Part shown: one piece after another, positions 1 through 11,104 of the stretch | How positions within the stretch are numbered: position 1 is the stretch's first letter | Layout of the letters: every line of letters begins with the position of its first letter | Origin: an uncultured Oscillospiraceae bacterium | GTDB lineage: Bacteria; Bacillota; Clostridia; Oscillospirales; Oscillospiraceae | NCBI GenBank assembly: GCA_944386055.1 | Contig: CALWZP010000011.1 | Coordinates: 1 to 64,000 of the forward strand | Direction of reading: 5' to 3' | Length of the DNA stretch: 64,000 nucleotides | Notes under the pieces: generated by a model | Told to the model about the DNA's origin: nothing | Databases searched by the model: none | Seen by the model: only the letters and a program-made list of their open reading frames with translations | Position numbers and translations under genes: made by a program

Positions 1-429
1 GAAGCTGTGCGTCAGATGGTGCTGGCAAAACGAGAAGATAGCACGAACGACCTCTATCTCCGCACACTGGAATTGGCCCAGGTGCCGGAGGAAGAATACT
101 TCGGTCATGTAGTCGCGGATGACCTGACCAAGATACTCCGCGATATTCGGGAAGCCCACAAGACTGACAGCACAACGGCAGACGAACCTTCCGCCGCCGC
201 ACAAGCCCAGCAGCAGTTGCAGACCGCCATGAATTTCGAGGGCAGCAGCGACGAAAAGAAGGCGAGGGCCTTTCTGGTGACATTTGGCATTGACTACGAT
301 GCGATCACCAAAGAACAGTTCGTCAATCTGATTGAAGTGCTGCGTCTGTCCAAGCACATGAAAAGCCCAATAAGCCAGCGGGGCAAAGGCAACATGACAC
401 ATGGAAAAGGGAAAAGAAAACGCAAATAG
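1..429 (+). CDS. Unidentified protein, 3' part only (gene begins outside the window)
   Basis: The frame is open from base 1 and stops at TAG 427-429, so this is the C-terminal part (142 residues) of a longer protein. A GTG at 7 has no ribosome site. The fragment is hydrophilic, with an Ala/Gln-rich linker in the middle (about residues 65-75) and a very basic Gly/Lys/Arg tail ending in KGKRKRK, which suggests nucleic-acid contact. No family was recognised. Base composition is visibly less GC-rich than the neighbours, which fits a gene of mobile or foreign origin, but that is inference. A strong hairpin follows directly. Confidence 0.55.
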   Translation, partial: EAVRQMVLAKREDSTNDLYLRTLELAQVPEEEYFGHVVADDLTKILRDIREAHKTDSTTADEPSAAAQAQQQLQTAMNFEGSSDEKKARAFLVTFGIDYDAITKEQFVNLIEVLRLSKHMKSPISQRGKGNMTHGKGKRKRK

Positions 430-435
430 GCAAGA

Positions 436-478
436 AAATACGCCGTATCCAGCAAAATTTGCTGAATGCGGCGTATTT
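436..478 (+). terminator. Rho-independent terminator after the left-edge gene
   Basis: Bases 436-445 (AAATACGCCG) pair perfectly with 469-478, and an inner stem (CAGC...GCTG) extends the hairpin almost to its centre. It begins 7 nt after the stop codon. The 3' side runs into a short T-rich stretch. Confidence 0.75.
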
Positions 479-542
479 CTTCATTGCCCAACCCTGCCTG
501 ACAGATGCCATAATTGTAATTCTTTCAAATTACTTTCTTATG

Positions 543-571
543 AGCACCTGTCCGAAGCGGGGGTGCTTTTT
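543..571 (+). terminator. Second terminator hairpin with T-run
   Basis: AGCACC (543-548) pairs with GGTGCT (562-567) and is followed by TTTTT. The T-run is on the plus strand, so it acts against transcription from the left. It also lies just past the 3' end of the minus-strand permease gene. Confidence 0.6.
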
Positions 572-603
572 ATGTGTGGGTGTATCCGCGGACCTGCCGG
601 CAA

Positions 604-2109
604 TCAACTGACCAGATTGGCGATGGGGTAGCAGAGCAGCGCGCAGATGATGGCACTGACAATACACATGACCAAACCGTTCAGGAATACCGTCTTGCCG
701 TTGCAGTACGGGTCGGCATAGGCCACGCCGATGGGCACATAGGCCGGCGGAATGGTGAAGGCCAGGTTGGCGCCCACGCAGACAGCCAGGGCCAGGGGGA
801 AGGGGTTGATGCCCAGCTCCAGGCACATGGGGACGCCGGCGCTGACGAAGATGATACCCACAGGCACATTGTTGGCAATATTGGTCAGGATGACGCACAG
901 CACGGCGATGATGGCCACCATGGCAAAGGGACTCAGGCCGGACACCAGCGGCACGATGTTGGCGGAAATCCAGGCAGGAATGCCGGTGGGGTTCTCGCCC
1001 ATGGCGGAGGCAATCATCATGATACCGGCCAGCAGCACCACAGGCAGCCAGTTGATCTTCTGGAACGCTTCGCCCAGATCCAGCAGAGGCTCGCCGTCCA
1101 CGCGGATCACCGCCAGCAGCACCACGGCCAGGAACAGCCAGCCGGAATCCGTGATGCGCGCCATAAAGGTATAGACGGGGTTGGTGGGAGCCACCAGAGA
1201 GATGATGCTGGGAACCACCCAGCAGAGCAGCAGCAGGATGGAGATCACGATGGTGATCTTCTCGCGCTTCTCCATGGGGCCGGGCTTCATGGCCTCGATC
1301 TTCTCCCACTGGATATTCTGCAGCTCAGGCACATCCTTGTCTACCTTGATAACAAACTTCATCCAGACCATCATGATGATCCAGATAATGGCGCCGATGG
1401 GCATACCGGCTGCCACATAGGACAGGATGCTGTAGGGCTGGCCCACGATGTTGGAGTAGATGCTCATCCAAAGGATGGGCAGGGTGTGGCAGATGGGGGT
1501 CATAGTGAAGCCGATGACCGCCGTAAAGGTGATCATGACCACCACATACTTGGGCCAGCGGTCGCCCTTGTTAAAGCCCAGGATCTTAAACATCTCATGA
1601 GCAATGCCCAGCATAAAGAACTGAGCGGGAGTGACATCCAGGAACAGAGCGATCACCAGGCCGGACAGGATCAGCATGAAGGTGAAGCTCCAGGGGCTCT
1701 TGCGGGCGACCTTGGTGGTGATGAACCACATACAGATGCGCCGCAGAGTACCGGCCTTTTCCAGTGCATAGACCACCAGCAGCGTGGCCAGCACGAACAG
1801 CACAATCCAGTTGCCGAAGGACTGCATACCAGCCTCGTAAACGCCGGACTGCTGCCAGGAGTTGGGATAGATGACCTGGGCGTCCAGCCCGAACATGACG
1901 ATGCCCAGGAAGGTGGGCCACATCATATCCACCGCCACCCACAGGTAGATCATCCCGATGAACTCACCAATGATGGCCATACCGGCGGGGGTAATGGGGT
2001 CCAGGGGCGGCAGGAAACGGAACAGGATCATGATCGCGACACCGATCAAGGATTTGACGATGTACTTGGCATCGATCTTCCCTTTTGCCGCTTGAGCAAG
2101 TGTACTCAT
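604..2109 (-). CDS. SLC13-like anion permease (IT superfamily)
   Basis: This is a 501-aa integral membrane protein with about a dozen hydrophobic segments. The family (SLC13/DASS and the wider ion transporter superfamily) imports dicarboxylates, citrate, sulfate or other organic anions, usually with Na+. The C-terminal half has a TNIANNVPVG stretch at the place of the second family SNT-type motif. The N-terminal counterpart is degenerate (DVTPAQF), so the substrate cannot be predicted. Start: ATG preceded by AAAAGGAGG. It is transcribed divergently from the molybdopterin operon across a 590-bp spacer, which suggests, without proving, that it brings in that system's substrate or exports its product. 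Confidence 0.75.
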   Translation of the reverse strand: MSTLAQAAKGKIDAKYIVKSLIGVAIMILFRFLPPLDPITPAGMAIIGEFIGMIYLWVAVDMMWPTFLGIVMFGLDAQVIYPNSWQQSGVYEAGMQSFGNWIVLFVLATLLVVYALEKAGTLRRICMWFITTKVARKSPWSFTFMLILSGLVIALFLDVTPAQFFMLGIAHEMFKILGFNKGDRWPKYVVVMITFTAVIGFTMTPICHTLPILWMSIYSNIVGQPYSILSYVAAGMPIGAIIWIIMMVWMKFVIKVDKDVPELQNIQWEKIEAMKPGPMEKREKITIVISILLLLCWVVPSIISLVAPTNPVYTFMARITDSGWLFLAVVLLAVIRVDGEPLLDLGEAFQKINWLPVVLLAGIMMIASAMGENPTGIPAWISANIVPLVSGLSPFAMVAIIAVLCVILTNIANNVPVGIIFVSAGVPMCLELGINPFPLALAVCVGANLAFTIPPAYVPIGVAYADPYCNGKTVFLNGLVMCIVSAIICALLCYPIANLVS

Positions 2110-2699
2110 TTGGGTGCCTCCTTTTAAAACTTTTCTCTCTCCCCTGAGCCGTTGACAGCGGCTGTCGGCTCAGGGCTTCTCTCCGCTCTGCTGGAGCGAC
2201 TGTTGGTGAGCAGAACCGGCTGAGCGGGCCGGTATGCTCAGGTGTGCTGGTCCGGGAATGTCCTCACGGCTGTTACTCTAAAGTATCGAGTAACCCGAAA
2301 GTCAAGCTGTTTTTCCCCAAAAGCAGGAATTTCGCTGTCCGTTTTGTTACATTGCCAATTTTTTAACAGCTGTTTTTGGATAATTCGTCAATTTTATCTT
2401 CCTCCTTTTGGAGTTTTTCCCCATTCTCACGAGCTTTAAAACTCCCATTTTTTTATTTTCCCCCCTTTTTCTTCCGTCCAAAACCTTTGAGCCTCTCCAG
2501 AGTTTTTCTGCTTCCGCCTTAAAATTTTTTCTCACAACGCTCCGGTTGTCAGCCGTTTTCTTTTGATGTTTCCCATCCCCCACCTCCGATGCTAAAATAA
2601 TTATCGACAGCGGAAGAACCGTTGAGGCTGTGTCTGGCCCTCCGGTGTGAGCAGCCGGAGCCCCTGGTCAGCATATGAGGAAAATAAGGAGGAATTACC
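2110..2699. other. 590-bp divergent intergenic region, no gene
   Basis: This spacer separates the permease (minus) from the molybdopterin operon (plus) and must hold both promoters. About 2380-2580 is strikingly pyrimidine-rich on the plus strand and AT-rich overall. Short reading frames here lack ribosome sites and show no coding character. A CTCCGG/CCGGAG inverted repeat lies at about 2640-2662, about 40 nt before the operon start. No known riboswitch was recognised. The length is ample for a LysR-type activator site. Confidence 0.6.
2142..2175 (-). promoter_or_regulatory. Leader hairpin upstream of the permease gene
   Basis: CCCTGAGCCG (2142-2151) pairs with 2166-2175, with an inner ACAGC/GCTGT stem. 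It lies in the 5' leader of the permease gene, about 30 nt before its start codon. There is no T-run on the minus strand, so an mRNA-stabilising or translational role is more likely than termination. Confidence 0.4.
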
Positions 2700-5051
2700 A
2701 TGAGCATCGAGTATGATCGCGTCGTAACTTCCACCGCCTGGTCCCCCGGCCCCGGCTGCCACGGCGGCTGCGGCGTCAAGATCTATGTCAAGGGCGACAA
2801 GGTGGTCAAGGTCGAGGGCGACAGAGATCACCCCTATAACCACGGGCGCGGATGTTCCCGCCTGCTGGCCATGACCCAGTTCATGTACCATCCCGAGCGC
2901 ATCCTCTATCCCCTGAAGCGCATCGGTCCCCGGGGCGACGGCCGCTTCGAGCGCATCACCTGGGATGAGGCCTATGACATCATTGAGGAGAAGTTCAACA
3001 AGATCAAGGAAGAGTACGGCGCCAACTCCGTCATCTTCATTCAGGGCACCGGCCGCGACATCGGCGGCCCCATGTCCATCGTGGCCTATAACTACGGCAG
3101 CGCCAACTGGTCTCAGCTGGGTCTGGCCGGTCAGGCCTGCTACGGCCCCCGTCTGGGCGCCATGTCCGCCGTGCAGGGCGACAACTCCATCTGCGACTGC
3201 TCTCAGTTCCTGGAGAAGCGTTATGACGATCCCCGGTGGAAGGCCCCCAAGGTCATTATCATCTGGGCCCAGGACCCCACCCGCGGATGCCAGGACGGCT
3301 TCTATGGCAACTGGATTGTGGACTGCATGAAGCGCGGCTCCAAGCTGATCGTGGTGGATCCCCGCCAAAACTGGCTGACCTCCCGTGCCGAGTACCATCT
3401 GCAGCTGCGCCCCGGCACCGACGCCGCCATCGCCATGGCCATGATCAATGTGATCATCGAGAACGACTGGTATGACCACGAGTTCGTGGAGAAGTGGTGC
3501 TCCGGCTTCGAGGAGCTGAAGGAGCGCGCCAAGGAGTACACCCTGGAGAAGGTGTCCGCCCTGACCTGGGTGCCCAAGGAGACCATCTACGAGGCGGCCA
3601 AGATGTACGCCGAGAACTCCCCCGGCTCCGCCATCCAGTGGGGCCTGCCCCTGGACCAGATCGCCGACGGCGTTCACGCCGCCCAGGCGGTGAACGACCT
3701 GTGGGCCATCACCGGCAATCTGGATGTTCCCGGCGGCCAGGTCATCGCCCGCAACGGCTATCATGTCTCCGCCTATCCCTTCGACAACTATCAGCTGGCC
3801 GATATGTTCGGCGAGGAGTTCGTGGAGGATGTGGTCCAGAAGCGCATCGGCTCTGACGAGTACGGCTGGCTGCGCAAATGGCGCTGCTACATCCAGCCCG
3901 ACCTGGCCATCGACCAGATGCTGACTCAGAAGCCCTATCCCATCAAGGCCACCTGGACCCAGACCGCCAACCCCGTGGCCCGGGGCGCCGATGTGAAGCT
4001 GCACTATCAGGCCATGATGGCCATGGACTTCAATGTGGTGGTGGACCTGTTCCACAACGCCACCACCATGGCGGTGGCCGACATCATCCTGCCCGCCTCC
4101 ACCTTTGCCGAGCGCACCGGCTTCCGCAGCTGGTTCGAGCCCGTTCAGATCATCCAGCCCGCCGTCCAGGTCGGCGAGTGCAAGAACGACTGGGACATCG
4201 CCTGCGAGATGGCCGCCCGCTTCAACCCCGACTTTGCCAAGCGCTTCCCCAACGGCTTCAAGGACTATATGGACTGGCGCCTGGAGCCCTCCGGCGAGAC
4301 CTATGAGAGCCTGAAGGCCAAGGGCGGCTGGAAGTGGGCCGACGCCGAGTGCAAGACCGAGGAAGTGGAGTCCAAGGTACCCTGGATCCCCTACTACCGC
4401 TATAAGACCGGCGCGCTGCGCGCCGACGGCAAGCCCGGCTTCCGTACTCCCTCCGGCAAGGTGGAGCTGTATTCCACTCAGAATGTGGATTGGGGCGCCA
4501 CCGGCTCCACTCTCGTGGATCCTCTGCCCCACTTCACCGAGCCCATCGAGTCCCCTGTCTCCACCCCCGACATCTACAAGCACTTCCCGCTGATCATGAT
4601 CACCGGCCGCCGCTCCCCCGTGTTCTTCCACGCGGAGCACCGCAACATCCCCTGGCTGCGTGAGCTGGACCCCTATCCCGATGTGGAGCTTCCCCCCAAT
4701 GTGGCCCGGGACGCCAAGGTCGAGGAAGGCGAGTGGGTCTGGGTGGAGAGCGCCCGCGGGCGTGTCCGCCGCAAGGTCAAGATCAACCCCGGCCTGCACC
4801 CCAAGACCATCTCCTGCGAGCATGGCTGGTGGCTGCCTGAGACTGAGGGCCGCTCCCCCTACCTGTACGGCTGCTTCGATGTGTCCATCAACAACCTGAC
4901 CCCCCACGGCGCTCAGGGCGTCACCGGCTACAGCGGCAGCGGCTACAAGACCACCCTGGTCCGCATCAAGAAGATGGGCGAGGGCAGCCCCTGCTGGCCC
5001 CCTGTTACGGTGTGGGGCAGATGGCCTCAGTACTACAAGGACAGCAAGTGA
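2700..5051 (+). CDS. Molybdopterin oxidoreductase, DMSO reductase family, catalytic subunit
   Basis: This 783-aa protein has the usual order of the family: an N-terminal Fe-S segment, a long molybdopterin domain (about 55-560) and a C-terminal dinucleotide-binding domain (about 590-770, starting near MITGRRSPVFF). The Fe-S segment has C20-X3-C24-X27-C52; the position of the usual first Cys is Gly17. C147 in QACYGPR is the probable Mo ligand. There is no Tat signal and no membrane segment, so the enzyme is cytoplasmic. Start: ATG after AAGGAGG. The next gene encodes a small Fe-S electron carrier. Related enzymes include acetylene hydratase and gut catechol dehydroxylases, but the reaction cannot be assigned from sequence alone. 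Confidence 0.9.
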   Translation: MSIEYDRVVTSTAWSPGPGCHGGCGVKIYVKGDKVVKVEGDRDHPYNHGRGCSRLLAMTQFMYHPERILYPLKRIGPRGDGRFERITWDEAYDIIEEKFNKIKEEYGANSVIFIQGTGRDIGGPMSIVAYNYGSANWSQLGLAGQACYGPRLGAMSAVQGDNSICDCSQFLEKRYDDPRWKAPKVIIIWAQDPTRGCQDGFYGNWIVDCMKRGSKLIVVDPRQNWLTSRAEYHLQLRPGTDAAIAMAMINVIIENDWYDHEFVEKWCSGFEELKERAKEYTLEKVSALTWVPKETIYEAAKMYAENSPGSAIQWGLPLDQIADGVHAAQAVNDLWAITGNLDVPGGQVIARNGYHVSAYPFDNYQLADMFGEEFVEDVVQKRIGSDEYGWLRKWRCYIQPDLAIDQMLTQKPYPIKATWTQTANPVARGADVKLHYQAMMAMDFNVVVDLFHNATTMAVADIILPASTFAERTGFRSWFEPVQIIQPAVQVGECKNDWDIACEMAARFNPDFAKRFPNGFKDYMDWRLEPSGETYESLKAKGGWKWADAECKTEEVESKVPWIPYYRYKTGALRADGKPGFRTPSGKVELYSTQNVDWGATGSTLVDPLPHFTEPIESPVSTPDIYKHFPLIMITGRRSPVFFHAEHRNIPWLRELDPYPDVELPPNVARDAKVEEGEWVWVESARGRVRRKVKINPGLHPKTISCEHGWWLPETEGRSPYLYGCFDVSINNLTPHGAQGVTGYSGSGYKTTLVRIKKMGEGSPCWPPVTVWGRWPQYYKDSK

Positions 5052-5068
5052 GGAAGGAGTGAGTACAC

Positions 5069-5413
5069 ATGGCTAAAAAAGGTATTCTGGTTGATATGAA
5101 CTACTGCACCGGCTGCCACGCCTGCGAGGTGGCCTGCAAGCAGGAGAATCAGTTCCCCGTGGGGATCTGCGGCATCAAGATCCATGAGCTGATCATGGAG
5201 GAGGGGCTGAACACCGACCGCGTCCACTTCGACTACTATCCCCACTTCACCACCCACTGCAATCTGTGTGCCTCCCGTATTTCCTCCGGCGAGGATACCG
5301 AGCCCGCCTGCTGCAAGCACTGCGGCACCTTCTCTCTCCACTATGGCGATATTGAAGACCTGGTGAAGATGATGGAGACCATGCCCCGCGCCGTGCTGCA
5401 CAGCCCCCTGTAA
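5069..5413 (+). CDS. Small two-cluster [4Fe-4S] electron-transfer subunit
   Basis: This 114-aa protein starts 17 nt after the molybdopterin subunit, with a GGAAGGAG ribosome site. C13-X2-C16-X2-C19-X3-C23 and C64-X2-C67...C81/C82-X2-C85 supply ligands for two cubane clusters in the interleaved pattern of DmsB/FdhB-type subunits (for example C13, C16, C19, C85 and C23, C64, C67, C81). Usual beta subunits bind four clusters in about 180-250 residues, so this is a minimal version. It lacks a membrane anchor. It most likely hands electrons to the catalytic subunit in the cytoplasm, from an unknown donor. Confidence 0.85.
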   Translation: MAKKGILVDMNYCTGCHACEVACKQENQFPVGICGIKIHELIMEEGLNTDRVHFDYYPHFTTHCNLCASRISSGEDTEPACCKHCGTFSLHYGDIEDLVKMMETMPRAVLHSPL

Positions 5414-5437
5414 GGTACACAACTCAATCAAGGATCC

Positions 5438-5466
5438 GCGGACGGCCGGTCCGGCCGGCCGTCCGC
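5438..5466 (+). promoter_or_regulatory. Strong intercistronic hairpin without T-run
   Basis: A perfect 12-bp stem of only G, C and one A-T pair (5438-5449 with 5455-5466) lies between the Fe-S gene and the 66-aa gene. No T-run follows and the downstream gene has its own ribosome site. An RNA processing or stabilising element that sets relative subunit levels is more likely than a full terminator. Confidence 0.5.
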
Positions 5467-5487
5467 CCTCTGAAAGGAGAGACCGGA

Positions 5488-5688
5488 ATGGCTCAGTTAA
5501 CTTATTCCTATTGCCGCCATGAATACGACCGCATCCCCTATCAGCTGAAGAAGGACCTGGACACCATCCTTGGTGACTCCAAGGCTGATGAGGAGACCAA
5601 GAAGCTGGTGGCCGATGTCTGCAAGGCGATGGAGCGTGCTGTGAACGACATGTGCCGCCTCGCCAGCGACCAGCTGATCCCCCGCTGA
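5488..5688 (+). CDS. Small protein of unknown function, 66 aa
   Basis: The ATG follows an AAAGGAGAG ribosome site, and the gene sits between the Fe-S subunit and the acetyltransferase on the same strand, 74 and 32 bp away. The protein is charged and probably all-helical, with His10, Cys9, Cys42 and Cys56 as the only evident metal-capable residues. It has no membrane segment and no family was recognised. Its position suggests a third subunit, assembly factor or chaperone for the molybdopterin enzyme; that is inference from context only. Confidence 0.7.
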   Translation: MAQLTYSYCRHEYDRIPYQLKKDLDTILGDSKADEETKKLVADVCKAMERAVNDMCRLASDQLIPR

Positions 5689-5720
5689 GGCGACGCCCTA
5701 TCCCAAGGAGGTTTTGTCCC

Positions 5721-6284
5721 ATGAGCGATCATATCCTGACCTACCATGAGATCAAGCGTGAGGAGATCCCCCGCAGCGCTGAGATCGTCTTTCGCGCGTT
5801 CAATCAGGCTGCGGAGCGGGAGAACTATCCCAAGACCCCCAGCATCGAGCCGGTGACCACCCGCCTCACCGAGTATCTGGACGACAAGGGGATCCCCGGG
5901 CTGCTCTATGGCGGCTATGTGGACGGCGTTCAAGTGGGGTTCTTCATGCTGCGCAAGCTGGGCATCGACGAGGAGACCTGGGAGATCAGTATGCTCAGTG
6001 TGGACCCGGAGTATCAGGGCCAGGGCTACGGCGCCAGACTGCTGGAGCGGGCCCTCCAGAAGATTCTGGATCTCAAGGGTGTGCTGGCCGTGGCCGCGGT
6101 GATGGAACGCAGCACCCATGTGCTGACCATGCTGGCAAATCACGGCTTCACCTGCGAGGCCTCCGGAGTCCCGGTGGGGCAGGATCTGTCCATCTGGATG
6201 CTGCGCAAGGACATGAAAAACGCGGCGGCCGCCTCCTGCTCTCCCGAGAGCTGCGAGGGCTGCTCCGGCGGCTGCGCGGGTTGA
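5721..6284 (+). CDS. GNAT-family N-acetyltransferase with Cys-rich tail
   Basis: This 187-aa protein starts at the ATG after AAGGAGG at 5706-5712; an earlier in-frame start at 5652 overlaps the previous gene and lacks a ribosome site. Motif A of the GNAT fold is clear: a beta strand LSVDPEYQGQGYGARLL followed by a helix (about residues 91-110), which binds acetyl-CoA. The last 16 residues are unusual, four Cys in SCSPESCEGCSGGCAG, resembling short metal-binding tails. It is the last gene before a strong terminator. The acceptor substrate is unknown; small molecules or a partner in the operon are possible. Confidence 0.8.
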   Translation: MSDHILTYHEIKREEIPRSAEIVFRAFNQAAERENYPKTPSIEPVTTRLTEYLDDKGIPGLLYGGYVDGVQVGFFMLRKLGIDEETWEISMLSVDPEYQGQGYGARLLERALQKILDLKGVLAVAAVMERSTHVLTMLANHGFTCEASGVPVGQDLSIWMLRKDMKNAAAASCSPESCEGCSGGCAG

Positions 6285-6307
6285 ACGCGTTCCCCTGCCG
6301 GGAAGTC

Positions 6308-6343
6308 AATCGGGCGCCCTGCCTTTTGGCAGGGCGCCCGATT
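6308..6343. terminator. Bidirectional terminator between convergent genes
   Basis: A perfect 16-bp GC-rich stem (6308-6323 with 6328-6343) with a TTTT loop lies between the acetyltransferase (plus) and LysR (minus) genes, which converge here. Confidence 0.85.
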
Positions 6344-6365
6344 CTGTCTTTCTGTCATTGCAACC

Positions 6366-7295
6366 TTATAAATCCCAGTTCCGGTATTTCAGATAGTGCT
6401 CCTCCACCCGCTGGTACTCCTTCTGAAGCTGTTTTGCGTACCGTTCCAGGTACTTGCCCGCGTTCTGATCCTGCCAGACGCAGAACAGGGTCTCCAGCAC
6501 ATCGGTGTCAAAGTGGGTAAGGCTGGCGTTCTGCGCCGTCTGCGCCATGCAGCTGCCGAAGAAGATCCCCCGGTCCAGCTCCGCCGCGGTATAGATGGAA
6601 TCCCGGTTGGGGACGATGACGATCTCCGCCGGAGCAAAGCCGTACCGGCGGCTTTCTTTTCTGGCCCGCAGCTGGGTGCTGGCCTCGCTCTCCCCTTCAA
6701 AGGAGTCGATGAGCATGGGCTGCCTGGCAAAGACATGATAGTCCGCCCCCGGCTGGTTGAGCCGGTTGTACCTGGACACCACCACCTGCATGGGGGTGGT
6801 GATCAGAGGCAGTTTGTGCAGTCCCTCCACCTTGGGCAGAAACCGCTTGTGGATCAGGATCATATCCAGCTCGTTTTTGTACAGCATGTCCAGCAGTTTG
6901 TTGGGCTCGTGCCGCTCCCCCAGCAGGAACAGGTCGGGAAAATCCTTTCGCAGCACCGCCATGGCCGTCCCCGGTGCGGGGCCGAAATCGATCCAATTCT
7001 GATAGCCGATGCGAATGTTCCGCACCTGGCTTGCCCGGCTCTCCTCGATCTCCGCCTGCAGCGCCTGGAAGCCGTCCACCACACTGCGGAAGAAGTTATA
7101 GTATTTCAGGCCGTTTTCCGTCAGCTCCACCCGATTGCGGGAACGGTAAAGCAGCTGTACCCCCAGGTCTTCCTCCAAACCGGCGATGTGTTTGCTTACC
7201 GCCTGCTGGGAGATGTACATCTGCTTCCCCACCTCGGTGAAATTCAGCGTCTCCGCCAGGCACAGAAAATATTTGATGTTCAGCTCATTGATCAC
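6366..7295 (-). CDS. LysR-family transcriptional regulator
   Basis: This 309-aa regulator has an N-terminal winged helix-turn-helix (about residues 3-60, with FTEVGKQMYISQQAVSKHI as the recognition region) and a LysR substrate-binding domain. The start is GTG at 7295, placed 10 nt after GGGAGGA; a longer in-frame ATG start at 7349 would add an Arg/Glu-rich extension unlike the family. The gene converges on the molybdopterin operon and is the nearest candidate for its inducer-responsive regulator. The ligand is unknown. Confidence 0.85.
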   Translation of the reverse strand: MINELNIKYFLCLAETLNFTEVGKQMYISQQAVSKHIAGLEEDLGVQLLYRSRNRVELTENGLKYYNFFRSVVDGFQALQAEIEESRASQVRNIRIGYQNWIDFGPAPGTAMAVLRKDFPDLFLLGERHEPNKLLDMLYKNELDMILIHKRFLPKVEGLHKLPLITTPMQVVVSRYNRLNQPGADYHVFARQPMLIDSFEGESEASTQLRARKESRRYGFAPAEIVIVPNRDSIYTAAELDRGIFFGSCMAQTAQNASLTHFDTDVLETLFCVWQDQNAGKYLERYAKQLQKEYQRVEEHYLKYRNWDL

Positions 7296-7434
7296 GGCTT
7301 CTGATTCCTCCCCCGGGTCCTCTTCCCGCCTTCGCCGCGCTTGGGACACAAAACCAATCTATTTTTTCTCTGAATACCAATATTATATTACAACAATCTG
7401 GTTGTGACAAGAGGGAGTTGCCCGACAGACGCAG

Positions 7435-7709: not shown

Positions 7710-9902
7710 TCAGGCCTTCACCGCATCCACGGCACGGAGATGCACGGTGGCCTCGCCGCGGTAGCCCTTGCGGACCAGCAGGAAGATCAGGCCGGCCAGC
7801 AGCGCGATGGCGACCACGGTGAACACTCCGAAAGTGGCCTCGCCGGAGATCAGGCCGCCGATCTGGAAGACGATGAGGGAGACCACATAGGCAAAGCCGC
7901 ACATATAGCCGATGGCGCCCAGGGTCCACTTCCAGTTGTTCATCTCCCGCTTGATGGCGCCCATGGCAGCGAAGCAGGGGGCGCACAGCAGGTTGAAGAT
8001 CAGGAAGCTGTACGCGCTCATGGCGCCGAAGTCGGCGCCCACCAGGGCCCAGATCTCGTCGCCGGCCTCGCTGAGCTCGCCGGCATAGTTGTACAGCACG
8101 CCGAAGGTGGCGACCACCTCCTCCTTGGCGATGAGGCCGGTGATGGTGGCCACGGCGGCCTTCCAGGCCCAGTCGCCGGCCCAGCCCAGGGGGTAGAAGA
8201 TCCAGGCGATGGCGTTGCCGATGGAGGCCAGCAGGGAGTGGTTGTTGTCCTCCACCGCCTGGAACACGCCGTCCACAAAGCCGTAGCCCTGGAGGAACCA
8301 CAGCACGATGGTGGACAGCAGGATCACGGTGCCGGCCCGCTTAATGAAAGACCAGCCCCGCTCCCAGGTGCCCCGGAGCACATTGGAGACGGCGGGGGCG
8401 TGATAGGCGGGCAGCTCCATGACGAAGGGGGCGGGCTCCCCGGCGAACATCTTGAACTTCTTCAGGATGATGCCGGAGACGATCACCGCGGCCACGCCGA
8501 TGAAGTAGGCGGACACCGCCACCCACCAGGCGCTGCCGAACAGAGCGCCGGCAATGAGGCCCACGATGGGCATCTTGGCGCCGCAGGGGATGAAGCCGGT
8601 GGTCATGATGGTCATCTTGCGGTCACGGTCCTGCTCGATGGTGCGGGAGGCCATGATGCCGGGCACGCCGCAGCCGGTGGCCACCAGCATGGGGATGAAG
8701 CTCTTGCCGGACAGGCCGAAGCGGCGGAAGATCCGGTCCATGATGAAGGCCACGCGGGACATATAGCCGATGTCCTCCAGGATGCACAGCATCAGGAACA
8801 GCACCAGCATCTGAGGCACGAAGCCCAGCACGGCGCCCACGCCGCCCACGATGCCGTCCATGATCAGGCCGTACAGCCAGCCCGTCACCACCGGCTCGCC
8901 GGCGGCGTTGAGCAGGAAGCCGTTGAAGAAGTTGGGCACGATCTCCGCGAAGAGCACATCGTTGGTCCATTCGGTGGCCATGGTGCCGATGGAGATGGGG
9001 AAGCCGCCCATGGCGACAGCGTACACCACGCACATCACCACCACGAAAATGGGCAGGGCCAGGATGCGGTTGGTGACGATGCGGTCGATCTTGTCCGAGG
9101 TGGTCATGCCGGTGCGCTTTTTCTTCACACTGGTCTGGACCACCTTGGCGATGTACTCATAGCGCTCGTTGGTGATGATGGACTCCGCGTCGTCGTCCAT
9201 CTCCTCCTCGCAGCCGCGGACGATCTCCTCCACGGCGGTCCCCACCGCGCCCAGGTTCAGCTGTTCCAGCACCTTCTCGTCCCGCTCGAACAGCTTCACC
9301 GCGTACCAGCGGATGGTCTGCTGGGGCACCTTGCCCTGGATCAGTGCCTCGATCTCGGACAAGGCCTCCTCCACCCTGTCGCAGAAGGTGTGCTTGGGCT
9401 GTATCCCTGCGCCCGACTGCACCAGCCGGATGGCCGCCTCCGCAGCGGCCAGAGTGCCCTCCCCCTTCAGCGCGGAGGTCTCCACCACCGGGCAGCCCAT
9501 GGCCTCGGAGAGCTTTTTGGTGTCGATGACATCCCCGTTCTTTTTCACCACATCCATCATGTTCAGGGCGATGACCACGGGGATGCCCATCTCGGTGAGC
9601 TGGGTGGTGAGGTAGAGGTTGCGTTCGATGTTGGTGGCGTCCACCAGGTTCAGGATGGCGTCGGGCCGGTCGTTGACCAGGTAATTCCGGGCCACCACCT
9701 CCTCCAGCGTGTAGGGGGAGAGGGAGTAGATGCCGGGCAGGTCGGTGATGGTCACATCCTTGTGACCCTTCAGCTTGCCGCCCTTCTTTTCCACCGTGAC
9801 GCCGGGCCAGTTGCCCACATATTGATTGGAGCCGGTCAGGTCATTGAACATGGTGGTCTTGCCACAGTTCGGGTTGCCTGCCAGCGCGATGCTGATTGAC
9901 AT
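7710..9902 (-). CDS. feoB: Ferrous iron transporter FeoB
   Basis: This 730-aa protein imports Fe2+ through the cytoplasmic membrane. The N-terminal G domain has G1 GNPNCGKTT, G2/G3 around NWPGVTVE and DLPGIYSLSP, and G4 NMMD. A helical linker follows, then a membrane domain with two gate-type repeats (CGVPGIMASRTIE and a later LLCAPCFAAMGAI). The start is taken at ATG 9902, spaced 10 nt from GGAGG; upstream in-frame codons sit on the ribosome site itself. It is in an operon with two feoA genes upstream and a small Cys-rich partner downstream. A TTAGC-N4-GCTAA operator lies just before it. Confidence 0.97.
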   Translation of the reverse strand: MSISIALAGNPNCGKTTMFNDLTGSNQYVGNWPGVTVEKKGGKLKGHKDVTITDLPGIYSLSPYTLEEVVARNYLVNDRPDAILNLVDATNIERNLYLTTQLTEMGIPVVIALNMMDVVKKNGDVIDTKKLSEAMGCPVVETSALKGEGTLAAAEAAIRLVQSGAGIQPKHTFCDRVEEALSEIEALIQGKVPQQTIRWYAVKLFERDEKVLEQLNLGAVGTAVEEIVRGCEEEMDDDAESIITNERYEYIAKVVQTSVKKKRTGMTTSDKIDRIVTNRILALPIFVVVMCVVYAVAMGGFPISIGTMATEWTNDVLFAEIVPNFFNGFLLNAAGEPVVTGWLYGLIMDGIVGGVGAVLGFVPQMLVLFLMLCILEDIGYMSRVAFIMDRIFRRFGLSGKSFIPMLVATGCGVPGIMASRTIEQDRDRKMTIMTTGFIPCGAKMPIVGLIAGALFGSAWWVAVSAYFIGVAAVIVSGIILKKFKMFAGEPAPFVMELPAYHAPAVSNVLRGTWERGWSFIKRAGTVILLSTIVLWFLQGYGFVDGVFQAVEDNNHSLLASIGNAIAWIFYPLGWAGDWAWKAAVATITGLIAKEEVVATFGVLYNYAGELSEAGDEIWALVGADFGAMSAYSFLIFNLLCAPCFAAMGAIKREMNNWKWTLGAIGYMCGFAYVVSLIVFQIGGLISGEATFGVFTVVAIALLAGLIFLLVRKGYRGEATVHLRAVDAVKA

Positions 9903-9928
9903 TGATTTCATTCCTCCCTGTTTGCTGA

Positions 9929-9942
9929 TTAGCACCAGCTAA
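9929..9942. promoter_or_regulatory. DtxR-type operator (copy 1) before feoB
   Basis: TTAGC-ACCA-GCTAA is an inverted repeat with 4-nt spacing that matches three other sites in the feo region. It lies between feoA and feoB, 27 bp before the feoB start. Confidence 0.65.
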
Positions 9943-9984
9943 CTCTTGAGTGGACCGCTTCGGTCCGCTTTCCCTTTCAGGCGG

Positions 9985-10206
9985 TTATTCCACCAGGATC
10001 TTGGACGCGTCGCTCTTGCGCAGGGAGAGCTCATATCCCCGGACGGTGACCTCCACCGGGTCCCCCAGCGGCGCCACCTTGCGCACGAACACCTGGGCCC
10101 CCTTGGTGATCCCCATGTCCATGATGCGGCGCTTTACAGCGCCCTCGCCCTCCAGCTTGGTCACCCGGACGGTCTGTCCGCACGGCACATCTCGCAGTGT
10201 TTTCAT
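9985..10206 (-). CDS. feoA: FeoA-domain protein (73 aa)
   Basis: This small SH3-like FeoA protein carries the usual features: an MKTLRDVPCGQTVRVTKLEG start, the RRIMDMGITKGAQV turn, and a GDPVEVTVRGYELSLRKSDA strand pair. FeoA is a cytoplasmic partner that interacts with FeoB during Fe2+ uptake. It lies directly upstream of feoB and downstream of a second feoA gene, on the same strand. Confidence 0.93.
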   Translation of the reverse strand: MKTLRDVPCGQTVRVTKLEGEGAVKRRIMDMGITKGAQVFVRKVAPLGDPVEVTVRGYELSLRKSDASKILVE

Positions 10207-10262
10207 CGGCTGTTCCCTCTTTCCTCTCTGGCATTCCAGAAGATAGTATCATCCCGCCGGAT

Positions 10263-10472
10263 TCAGATCATGATCCGGCTGGCCATGGCGGTGGACAGGG
10301 CAATCCGGCTGTCCCTTACATTGACAATCAGATTTCCCCCGATCTGCGTCACCACCACCACCTGTCCGCCCACTGTGAAACCGAGGCTCTCCAGAAAGCG
10401 GCGGGTCTCGTCCTTTCCGCAGATTTTCTTCACCGTGTTTGGTTGTCCTGTCGTGGCAAAGGTCAATGGCAT
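10263..10472 (-). CDS. feoA: Second FeoA-domain protein (69 aa)
   Basis: The sequence is a FeoA domain of the shorter type (MPLTFATTGQPNTVKKICGK, then ETRRFLESLGFTVGGQV). The start is set at ATG 10472, 11 nt after AAAGGAG; an upstream GTG at 10484 overlaps the ribosome site. It is the first gene of the feo operon. Two tandem operators lie just upstream. The two FeoA proteins are clearly different in sequence, so this is not a recent duplication. Confidence 0.92.
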   Translation of the reverse strand: MPLTFATTGQPNTVKKICGKDETRRFLESLGFTVGGQVVVVTQIGGNLIVNVRDSRIALSTAMASRIMI

Positions 10473-10503
10473 GATGGTAATCACTCCTTTTCACCTGCGG
10501 AGA

Positions 10504-10517
10504 TTAGCACTCGCTAA
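10504..10517. promoter_or_regulatory. DtxR-type operator (copy 2) before feoA
   Basis: TTAGC-ACTC-GCTAA is the same inverted repeat and spacing as the other three. It lies about 30 bp upstream of the first feoA start. Confidence 0.7.
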
Positions 10518-10535
10518 CCCATTGCCAACAAAAAT

Positions 10536-10553
10536 GGTTAGTATGTACTAACC
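10536..10553. promoter_or_regulatory. DtxR-type operator (copy 3) before feoA
   Basis: GGTTAGTATGTACTAACC is a perfect 18-bp palindrome, with 14 bp between its TTAG and the end of copy 2's repeat. Two adjacent sites suggest cooperative repressor binding over the feo promoter. Confidence 0.75.
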
Positions 10554-10633
10554 GCAGATTCGAGCAAAGTTTACCACAGCCCCCCGCCATTGTCAACCAC
10601 TTCCTGAAAAATTTTTTCTCCGCCGAATTTCCC

Positions 10634-10662
10634 TTGCCCAACCAGTCATCTTATAGTATAAT
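10634..10662 (+). promoter_or_regulatory. Sigma-A promoter of the DtxR-type regulator gene
   Basis: TTGCCC (10634-10639), a 17-nt spacer and a perfect TATAAT (10657-10662) lie 64 bp upstream of the regulator start. Confidence 0.7.
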
Positions 10663-10726
10663 ATGACCAATTCCTATGGTCCGATGCCTGAGGCTTCTTC
10701 CTCCACATCAGAAAGGGGGCTTTCCC

Positions 10727-11104
10727 ATGACGAGAAATAACGAGTCTGCCGAGGATTATCTGGAGGCGATCCTGATGCTCTCCCAGCAAAAGGGCCTGGT
10801 CCGTTCCATTGACATTGCCCATCAGATGAACTATACCAAACCCAGCGTCAGCCGGGCCATGAGCCTGCTGCGGGAGCGGGGGCATATCGTCATGGACAAG
10901 GACGGGTGGATCACCCTTACTGATACTGGCCGCGCCATTGCCGAGCGGATCTACGAACGGCACCGTCTGCTTACCCAGTGGCTGACCCAGCTGGGTGTCT
11001 CTCCCCAGGTGGCCGCAGAGGATGCCTGCCGGCTGGAACACGACCTCAGCGACGAGACCTTCCAGCGGATGAAGGAGCATATCGCCGCGTCGAAGCAGCC
11101 TTAG
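10727..11104 (+). CDS. DtxR/MntR-family metal-dependent regulator
   Basis: This 125-aa regulator has a winged helix-turn-helix (about 5-65, SAEDYLEAILML then MNYTKPSVSRAMSLLRERG) and a short dimerisation/metal domain with candidate ligands His87, Glu104, His106 and His118. It lacks the C-terminal SH3 domain of long DtxR proteins, like MntR. It is divergent from the feo operon and lies among four matching palindromes, so it is the probable repressor that senses Fe2+ (or Mn2+). Start: the ATG after AAAGGGGG; a longer frame from 10676 has no ribosome site. Confidence 0.9.
   Translation: MTRNNESAEDYLEAILMLSQQKGLVRSIDIAHQMNYTKPSVSRAMSLLRERGHIVMDKDGWITLTDTGRAIAERIYERHRLLTQWLTQLGVSPQVAAEDACRLEHDLSDETFQRMKEHIAASKQP

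Follow-up and report, generated by a model that had tools for sequence, protein, structure and literature searches.

A soluble molybdoenzyme cluster from an uncultured Oscillospiraceae bacterium, likely of the Gordonibacter-type phenol dehydroxylase class, and its possible link to aromatic ring cleavage

Detailed knowledge of phenol dehydroxylation by the dimethyl sulfoxide reductase family comes almost only from gut Coriobacteriia. The catechol dehydroxylases of the Gordonibacter type are cytoplasmic two-subunit enzymes, with a catalytic protein of about 770 amino acids (aa) and a small 4Fe-4S partner (PMC7028382, PMC11585353, PMC12771579), and the genomes of Gordonibacter and Ellagibacter hold more than 30 of them (PMC12771579). 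Here we describe a related gene cluster at the beginning of a 64,000-nucleotide stretch of DNA (the window) from an uncultured Oscillospiraceae bacterium, whose 783-aa molybdoenzyme likely belongs to the dehydroxylase class. The cluster represents a little-studied branch of the cytoplasmic phenol dehydroxylases, with a known architecture in a new genomic context. Gene content, synteny, phylogeny, residues and the pyrogallol/phloroglucinol genes of the host led us to favor, with moderate confidence, a phenol dehydroxylase of the Gordonibacter kind, soluble and with molybdenum (or tungsten), that would act on an imported aromatic acid with vicinal hydroxyls, the ring then being reduced and hydrolysed.

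Gene families in the window were assigned with Pfam and NCBIfam. The catalytic subunit (positions 2700..5051, + strand) is a MopB protein whose domains, PF04879+PF00384+PF01568, comprise an Fe4S4, a molybdopterin and a dinucleotide-binding domain. It begins MSIEYDRVVTSTAWSPGPGCHGGCG and therefore has no twin-arginine translocation (Tat) leader. Its N-terminal motif reads W14-S15-x-G-P-G-C20-H21-G-G-C24, then C52-x-R54; in none of 36 family members did the iron-sulfur (Fe-S) motif, normally Cx2Cx3C, have its first Cys. By alignment, Cys147 is the molybdenum or tungsten ligand, and it was invariant across the 36 members. The closest solved structure was acetylene hydratase (2e7z), with 262 bits for the single sequence and 418 bits for the profile, and the AF2 model of the enzyme (pLDDT 86) matched the same fold with a VIA Z of 38.7 over 691 residues at 2.4 Å. 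An earlier note, made from the DNA letters alone, had presented the system as a minimal cytoplasmic one without Tat signal, membrane anchor or TorD/NarJ-type chaperone. These absences were borne out, as the protein had no Tat motif and no membrane segment, and a search of the host assembly for PF02613 found no such chaperone. The suggestion that they set the system apart was not: the published Gordonibacter-type enzymes are also cytoplasmic and two-subunit and are likewise described without Tat signal or anchor, and we no longer regard the missing anchor and chaperone as remarkable.

The small Fe-S partner subunit of 114 aa is encoded directly downstream (5069..5413, + strand). Its two [4Fe-4S]-type motifs have the Cys spacing of two clusters, a correction to the earlier description of this partner, which was otherwise confirmed, and they resemble the first and last motifs of four-cluster subunits. 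Its identity to the 111-117-aa Fe-S proteins that accompany the Coriobacteriia enzymes was 36-42%. Moreover, neighbor clustering of the named loci showed that almost all relatives of the enzyme have an Fe-S gene beside them.

The distribution of the family was followed in two genome samples and in a named scan of GTDB genomes. In a sample of 300 genomes from the GTDB family to which the host belongs, 14 genomes, not counting the host itself, had a relative at no less than 49% identity; all of those with a complete N-terminus carried the three-Cys motif, while the next group, at 37-39% identity, had four Cys. The named scan gave 80 loci at 45-95% identity (one at a contig end, incomplete, reads 100%), and its motif counts are biased because the scan selects for its own patterns. 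A 95%-identical orthologue came from an uncultured Oscillospiraceae metagenome-assembled genome (MAG). Named-scan hosts were Sporobacter termitidis (80%), termite-gut Clostridiales, Moorella, Sporomusaceae, Propionivibrio, Desulfopila, Dehalococcoidia, Rhodospirillaceae, SAR324 and others. In the second sample, of 396 Actinomycetota genomes, a single genome could hold as many as 107 MopB candidates. The Coriobacteriia enzymes were 42-45% identical to that of the window and had the same three-Cys motif and a 111-117-aa Fe-S partner; a single genome held 37 of them, and MFS-like transporters lay beside them in several loci. Viral contigs gave 68 pattern matches and no relatives, and the four relatives on plasmids, at 30-33% identity, were uninformative.

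In the careful tree, the window branch was supported at 100/99 (bootstrap/SH-aLRT), and so was a joint clade with the cytoplasmic enzymes of Coriobacteriia. Inside this clade the window branch was separate from the Coriobacteriia radiation and mostly non-coriobacterial; the window's own subclade, of ten rows, had a support of 100. The window family and the Coriobacteriia enzymes had in common the missing first Fe-S Cys, Arg54, HxEHR (644-648) and Cys147, of which Arg54 and HxEHR were mostly missing from the four-Cys group. The phylogenetic comparison proposed in the earlier note placed the enzyme with the catechol-dehydroxylase-type Coriobacteriia enzymes, far from AthL of the pyrogallol transhydroxylase family, in a clade that includes neither acetylene hydratase nor the four-Cys enzymes. 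A first tree had grouped acetylene hydratase with the four-Cys enzymes; we dropped that grouping, since the careful tree put 2e7z outside both with a modest support of 88/81. Our claim goes no further than that acetylene hydratase is outside the joint clade. The enzyme is a MopB (bis-MGD) protein of about 770 aa, nearest to acetylene hydratase among solved structures, without Tat signal, with a dedicated Fe-S partner and inside the joint clade, as is characteristic of cytoplasmic catechol dehydroxylases.

Several variants were seen within the family. The Dehalococcoidia/Chloroflexi branch (L083, L075, L092, L102, L121, and L126) carried the motif WSAGCGSHGGCG, in which the second Fe-S Cys is replaced by Ser and a Cys stands two residues earlier, and its neighbors were acyl-CoA dehydrogenase, hydratase/dehydrogenase and thiolase genes. 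A few Coriobacteriia paralogues among L207-L236 (genomes G667 and G358) had lost more Fe-S Cys, e.g. WSPPGEHPVGW, and the N-terminal cluster may be absent from them altogether. The copies in L063 and L067, from MAGs labelled Synergistaceae and Accumulibacter, closely resembled those of gut Clostridiales, pointing to recent transfer or misbinning. In addition, two enzyme copies stood adjacent or near each other in L086, L110, L115, L117 and L082, from marine Rhodospirillaceae, Betaproteobacteria and a Clostridiales genome.

The gene content of the window's subclade was judged from loci long enough to tell. In L058, L061, L062, L063 and the sister species G158, a DASS permease, an OYE-type flavoenzyme (PF00724 + Pyr_redox_2) and a PF04199 hydrolase lay beside the molybdoenzyme and Fe-S genes; the gene of a 66-aa protein was present in all five and a MerR gene in most, and L064 had no transporter, OYE or hydrolase gene of these kinds. 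The permease of the window is a DASS/CitMHS-type anion permease of 501 aa (604..2109, - strand; PF03600 9e-25, PF00939 7e-18) that diverges from the enzyme operon, and its TIGR00785 score was under the family cut-off. Its orthologues in G158 (78%) and L058 (70%) were likewise divergent from the enzyme, and L061, L062 and L063 had related permeases. The 66-aa open reading frame (ORF) of the window (5488..5688, + strand) is a real gene because eight syntenic orthologues (36-70% identity) in other genomes stood each directly 3' of the Fe-S gene, a position kept in the subclade. The AF2 model of the protein (pLDDT 80) had two helices, 2-29 and 35-63. It matched no Pfam or NCBIfam family, and comparison with the PDB by sequence and fold gave nothing convincing, the best Foldseek rows being two-helix segments with E values of at least 0.3. 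We guess that it is a third subunit or an assembly factor.

In the host assembly (2.3 Mb, 90% complete), contig C11 starts at position 1 of the window. The six ORFs of the earlier note were all found where it had placed them and the gene set is real, but the cluster extends beyond the contig end that limited its view. Another contig, C4, starts with MerR, followed by orthologues of the OYE (95% to G158) and of the PF04199 hydrolase (91%), and in G158 the MerR, ring-hydrolase and OYE genes come after the permease. The 48 bases at window positions 529-576 resemble bases 50-96 of C4, and because the two contig starts have this stretch in common, a repeat or inserted element may lie between the two halves. 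The same contig start (window 1-604) carries a 140-aa ORF (7-429) without Pfam or NCBIfam match. Just upstream of the Sporobacter cluster (L061, 2-2970) we observed genes resembling a B12-dependent carbon-skeleton mutase (about 490 aa, 148 aa and a companion), with homologues in L077.

Genes of pyrogallol and phloroglucinol metabolism recurred near the enzyme. Pyrogallol-transhydroxylase-type genes (PF21423) were near the enzyme in 19 of the 80 named loci; the hosts of these 19 belong to Bacillota, Alpha- and Betaproteobacteria, Desulfobacterota and SAR324. When other loci were spot-checked, 14 from Actinomycetota and thus the Coriobacteriia ones among them, a transhydroxylase gene was present in L041 and L042 only, both of the same family as the window enzyme. 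In L071, L074, L076, L082 and L127, with Bacillota among the hosts, the genes around the enzyme make up a phloroglucinol pathway of the Clostridium scatologenes kind (PMC10470551), with an SDR reductase, PF04199 hydrolases, TfD, TAL, thiolase and CoA transferase, the set being incomplete in some. The host genome has three AthLS loci (L137, L140 and L141, on contigs C39, C7 and C4), two of them beside TRAP transporters. One of the three also has thiolase, TAL and CoA transferase genes, and elsewhere in the genome TfD adjoins a second PF04199 hydrolase. The joint set of SDR phloroglucinol reductase, PF04199 cyclohydrolase, TfD and TAL was not found at the window locus, and parts of it were on contigs C4 and C27. 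Given these AthLS, thiolase, TAL, CoA transferase, hydrolase and TfD genes, the host is very probably a polyphenol degrader with the canonical pyrogallol-phloroglucinol route, and the OYE/hydrolase pair would be its second pair for ring reduction and ring opening.

Taken together, the phylogeny, residues, Fe-S partner and aromatic-degradation neighbors support the earlier analogy to gut catechol dehydroxylases acting on an imported organic anion; that the substrate is of the gallate or protocatechuate type is a guess. The permease would import a vicinally hydroxylated aromatic acid, with gallate as the first guess and protocatechuate or a pyrogallol-type relative next. We infer a reductive dehydroxylation in which the two-cluster Fe-S subunit would hand electrons to the Cys-ligated metal center and the enzyme would take off one hydroxyl that has an ortho neighbor, leaving a meta-hydroxylated (resorcinol-type) ring. 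The OYE-type flavoenzyme would reduce this ring to a cyclic 1,3-diketone and the PF04199 hydrolase would open it, although the order of these two steps is guessed. Catechol-dehydroxylase-type enzymes require an ortho hydroxyl (PMC12771579), and retro-Claisen ring opening requires a 1,3-diketone, hence a meta-dihydroxy ring (PMC10470551). A dehydroxylation step fits here, since a catechol acid gives no 1,3-diketone as it is and a vicinal triol gives the plain resorcinol pattern only after its middle hydroxyl is lost. The conversion of gallate to 3,5-dihydroxybenzoate would be the neatest match with an anion permease. A literature search for a known gene of an OYE-type resorcinol reductase found none.

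Demethylation of syringate and vanillate gives gallate and protocatechuate. Sporobacter termitidis, whose 80%-identical enzyme is encoded in the same cluster, is restricted in its growth to methoxylated aromatics, e.g. syringate and vanillate, and cleaves the ring (PMC4585845). Rumen communities are reported to convert gallate to phloroglucinol or resorcinol (PMC12249202). As a more specific and quite tentative proposal, which we consider possible but doubtful, the cytoplasmic molybdoenzyme, with the 66-aa protein as third component, would remove the middle hydroxyl of gallate or a similar acid without prior decarboxylation to give a resorcylate for the OYE and PF04199 hydrolase, in parallel to the pyrogallol-phloroglucinol route. 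If so, this route would help explain the resorcinol-type products of gallate in gut communities, and it would add to the anaerobic metabolism of tannin and lignin acids a route not described before.

Some observations weigh against a dehydroxylase feeding ring cleavage. The cluster is split between C11 and C4 in the host assembly, and L065 has a TRAP transporter and lacks OYE and hydrolase. A DASS permease is weakly informative on the substrate, and the environmental relatives beside transhydroxylases could act on a different one. Furthermore, the tree holds no biochemically characterised catechol dehydroxylase under its own name, its Coriobacteriia members being matched by architecture and copy number only, and the separation of the window branch from the Coriobacteriia branch may reflect a shift of activity.

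Among the alternatives, the enzyme could carry out the same chemistry for detoxification or as an electron sink, the product leaving the cell instead of serving as carbon source. In other gut bacteria catechol dehydroxylation is linked to respiration and a detoxifying role has been proposed (PMC12771579), and the host's OYE and hydrolase genes lie on a different contig from the enzyme; since sister species have the genes for ring reduction and ring opening clustered with the enzyme, we give this explanation a rather low chance. A transhydroxylase or hydroxylase of polyphenols, similar to pyrogallol-phloroglucinol transhydroxylase or resorcinol hydroxylase and e.g. making or using 1,2,3,5-tetrahydroxybenzene, would account for the strong co-location of AthLS and phloroglucinol genes with the enzyme across several phyla. 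However, the metal ligand of the transhydroxylase family is Ser (PMC10100899) and not Cys as at position 147, PF21423 is missing from the window enzyme and present in the AthL encoded beside its relatives, the two are distant in the tree, and the Fe-S partner has no counterpart of the extra C-terminal domain of AthS, all of which makes such an activity unlikely. Less likely still, the enzyme could be the terminal reductase of some other anion taken up by the cell, e.g. an unsaturated acid or an organic N- or S-oxide, and the aromatic genes could be its neighbors by chance: MopB enzymes are versatile and the permease and LysR are generic, but OYE, PF04199 hydrolase and AthLS are seen repeatedly in hosts that are not related, and the clade consists of presumptive phenol-acting enzymes. 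A non-redox hydratase/dehydratase like acetylene hydratase, the nearest solved relative in both sequence and fold, is very improbable, because the position of Asp13, the catalytic residue of that enzyme, is His (His21 in the window) in 36/36 members, that of Lys48 is Arg (Arg54; Lys in 4/36), one Cys of the four-Cys motif is not kept, a conserved Fe-S electron-transfer partner would be needless, and the nearest clade is of the Coriobacteriia type. We therefore retain the phenol dehydroxylase as the preferred explanation.

The remaining genes of the cluster are less conserved. A GNAT acetyltransferase with a Cys-rich C-terminal tail (5721..6284, + strand; PF00583 9e-12) appears accessory, and its role in the system is guessed; orthologues were confined to the closest relatives (L057, L058, L059 and G158) and kept the Cys-containing tail pointed out in the earlier note. 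The LysR-type regulator (6366..7295, - strand; PF00126, PF03466) was given the GTG start at 7295, with an alternative in-frame start possible at 7349. LysR genes were nearby in L057 (78%), G158 (82%), L058 (66%) and Sporobacter (57%), and a more distant one in L059 (37%). Neighbor conservation, which the earlier note had named as a check, was graded: nearly universal for the Fe-S gene, at the level of the near subclade for the 66-aa protein, permease, OYE and hydrolase, confined to the closest relatives for GNAT, and patchy for LysR. A lack of such conservation, which that note would have taken as a refutation, thus applies to GNAT and in part to LysR, but the Fe-S, 66-aa and permease genes contradict it. 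Next to the cluster (7710-11104), translations indicated FeoB, two FeoA-like proteins and an MntR/DtxR-like regulator, an ordinary iron uptake set.

The locus offers a testable new link between the cytoplasmic phenol dehydroxylases and anaerobic ring cleavage, and its branch widens the class to Bacillota, Proteobacteria, Desulfobacterota, Chloroflexota and SAR324. It also supplies candidate genes for two community activities that lack an enzyme. One is the formation of resorcinol-type products from gallate in the rumen (PMC12249202); the other, seen in soil enrichments and still without a known enzyme in 2015, converts protocatechuate to 3-hydroxybenzoate (PMC4585845). The close copy in cultured Sporobacter termitidis makes a direct test possible.

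Compared with known systems, the cluster is most like the Gordonibacter type (Dodh, Cldh, Gp Hcdh, and Eadh1-3), which also has no Tat signal, a length of about 750-785 aa, an adjacent small 4Fe-4S partner, a transporter and a regulator. The Gordonibacter type has an MFS transporter and a LuxR regulator, whereas the window branch has DASS or TRAP transporters and LysR/MerR regulators; moreover, the former stands alone, while the latter has the 66-aa companion and linked ring-opening genes. Acetylene hydratase Ahy of Pelobacter acetylenicus (2e7z) has the same fold and Cys metal ligand, but differs from the window enzyme at Asp13 and Lys48, in its first Fe-S Cys and in the electron-transfer partner. 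AthL/AthS is likewise a MopB enzyme of polyphenol metabolism, often encoded beside the window family, yet it is set apart by its Ser ligand, PF21423 domain, larger Fe-S subunit and distant place in the tree. Finally, the phloroglucinol pathway of Clostridium scatologenes (PMC10470551) has homologues of its PF04199 hydrolase, TfD, TAL and thiolase in the host and beside relatives of the enzyme, whereas the window's subclade has a different PF04199 hydrolase, an OYE-type instead of an SDR-type phloroglucinol reductase, and the molybdoenzyme in addition.

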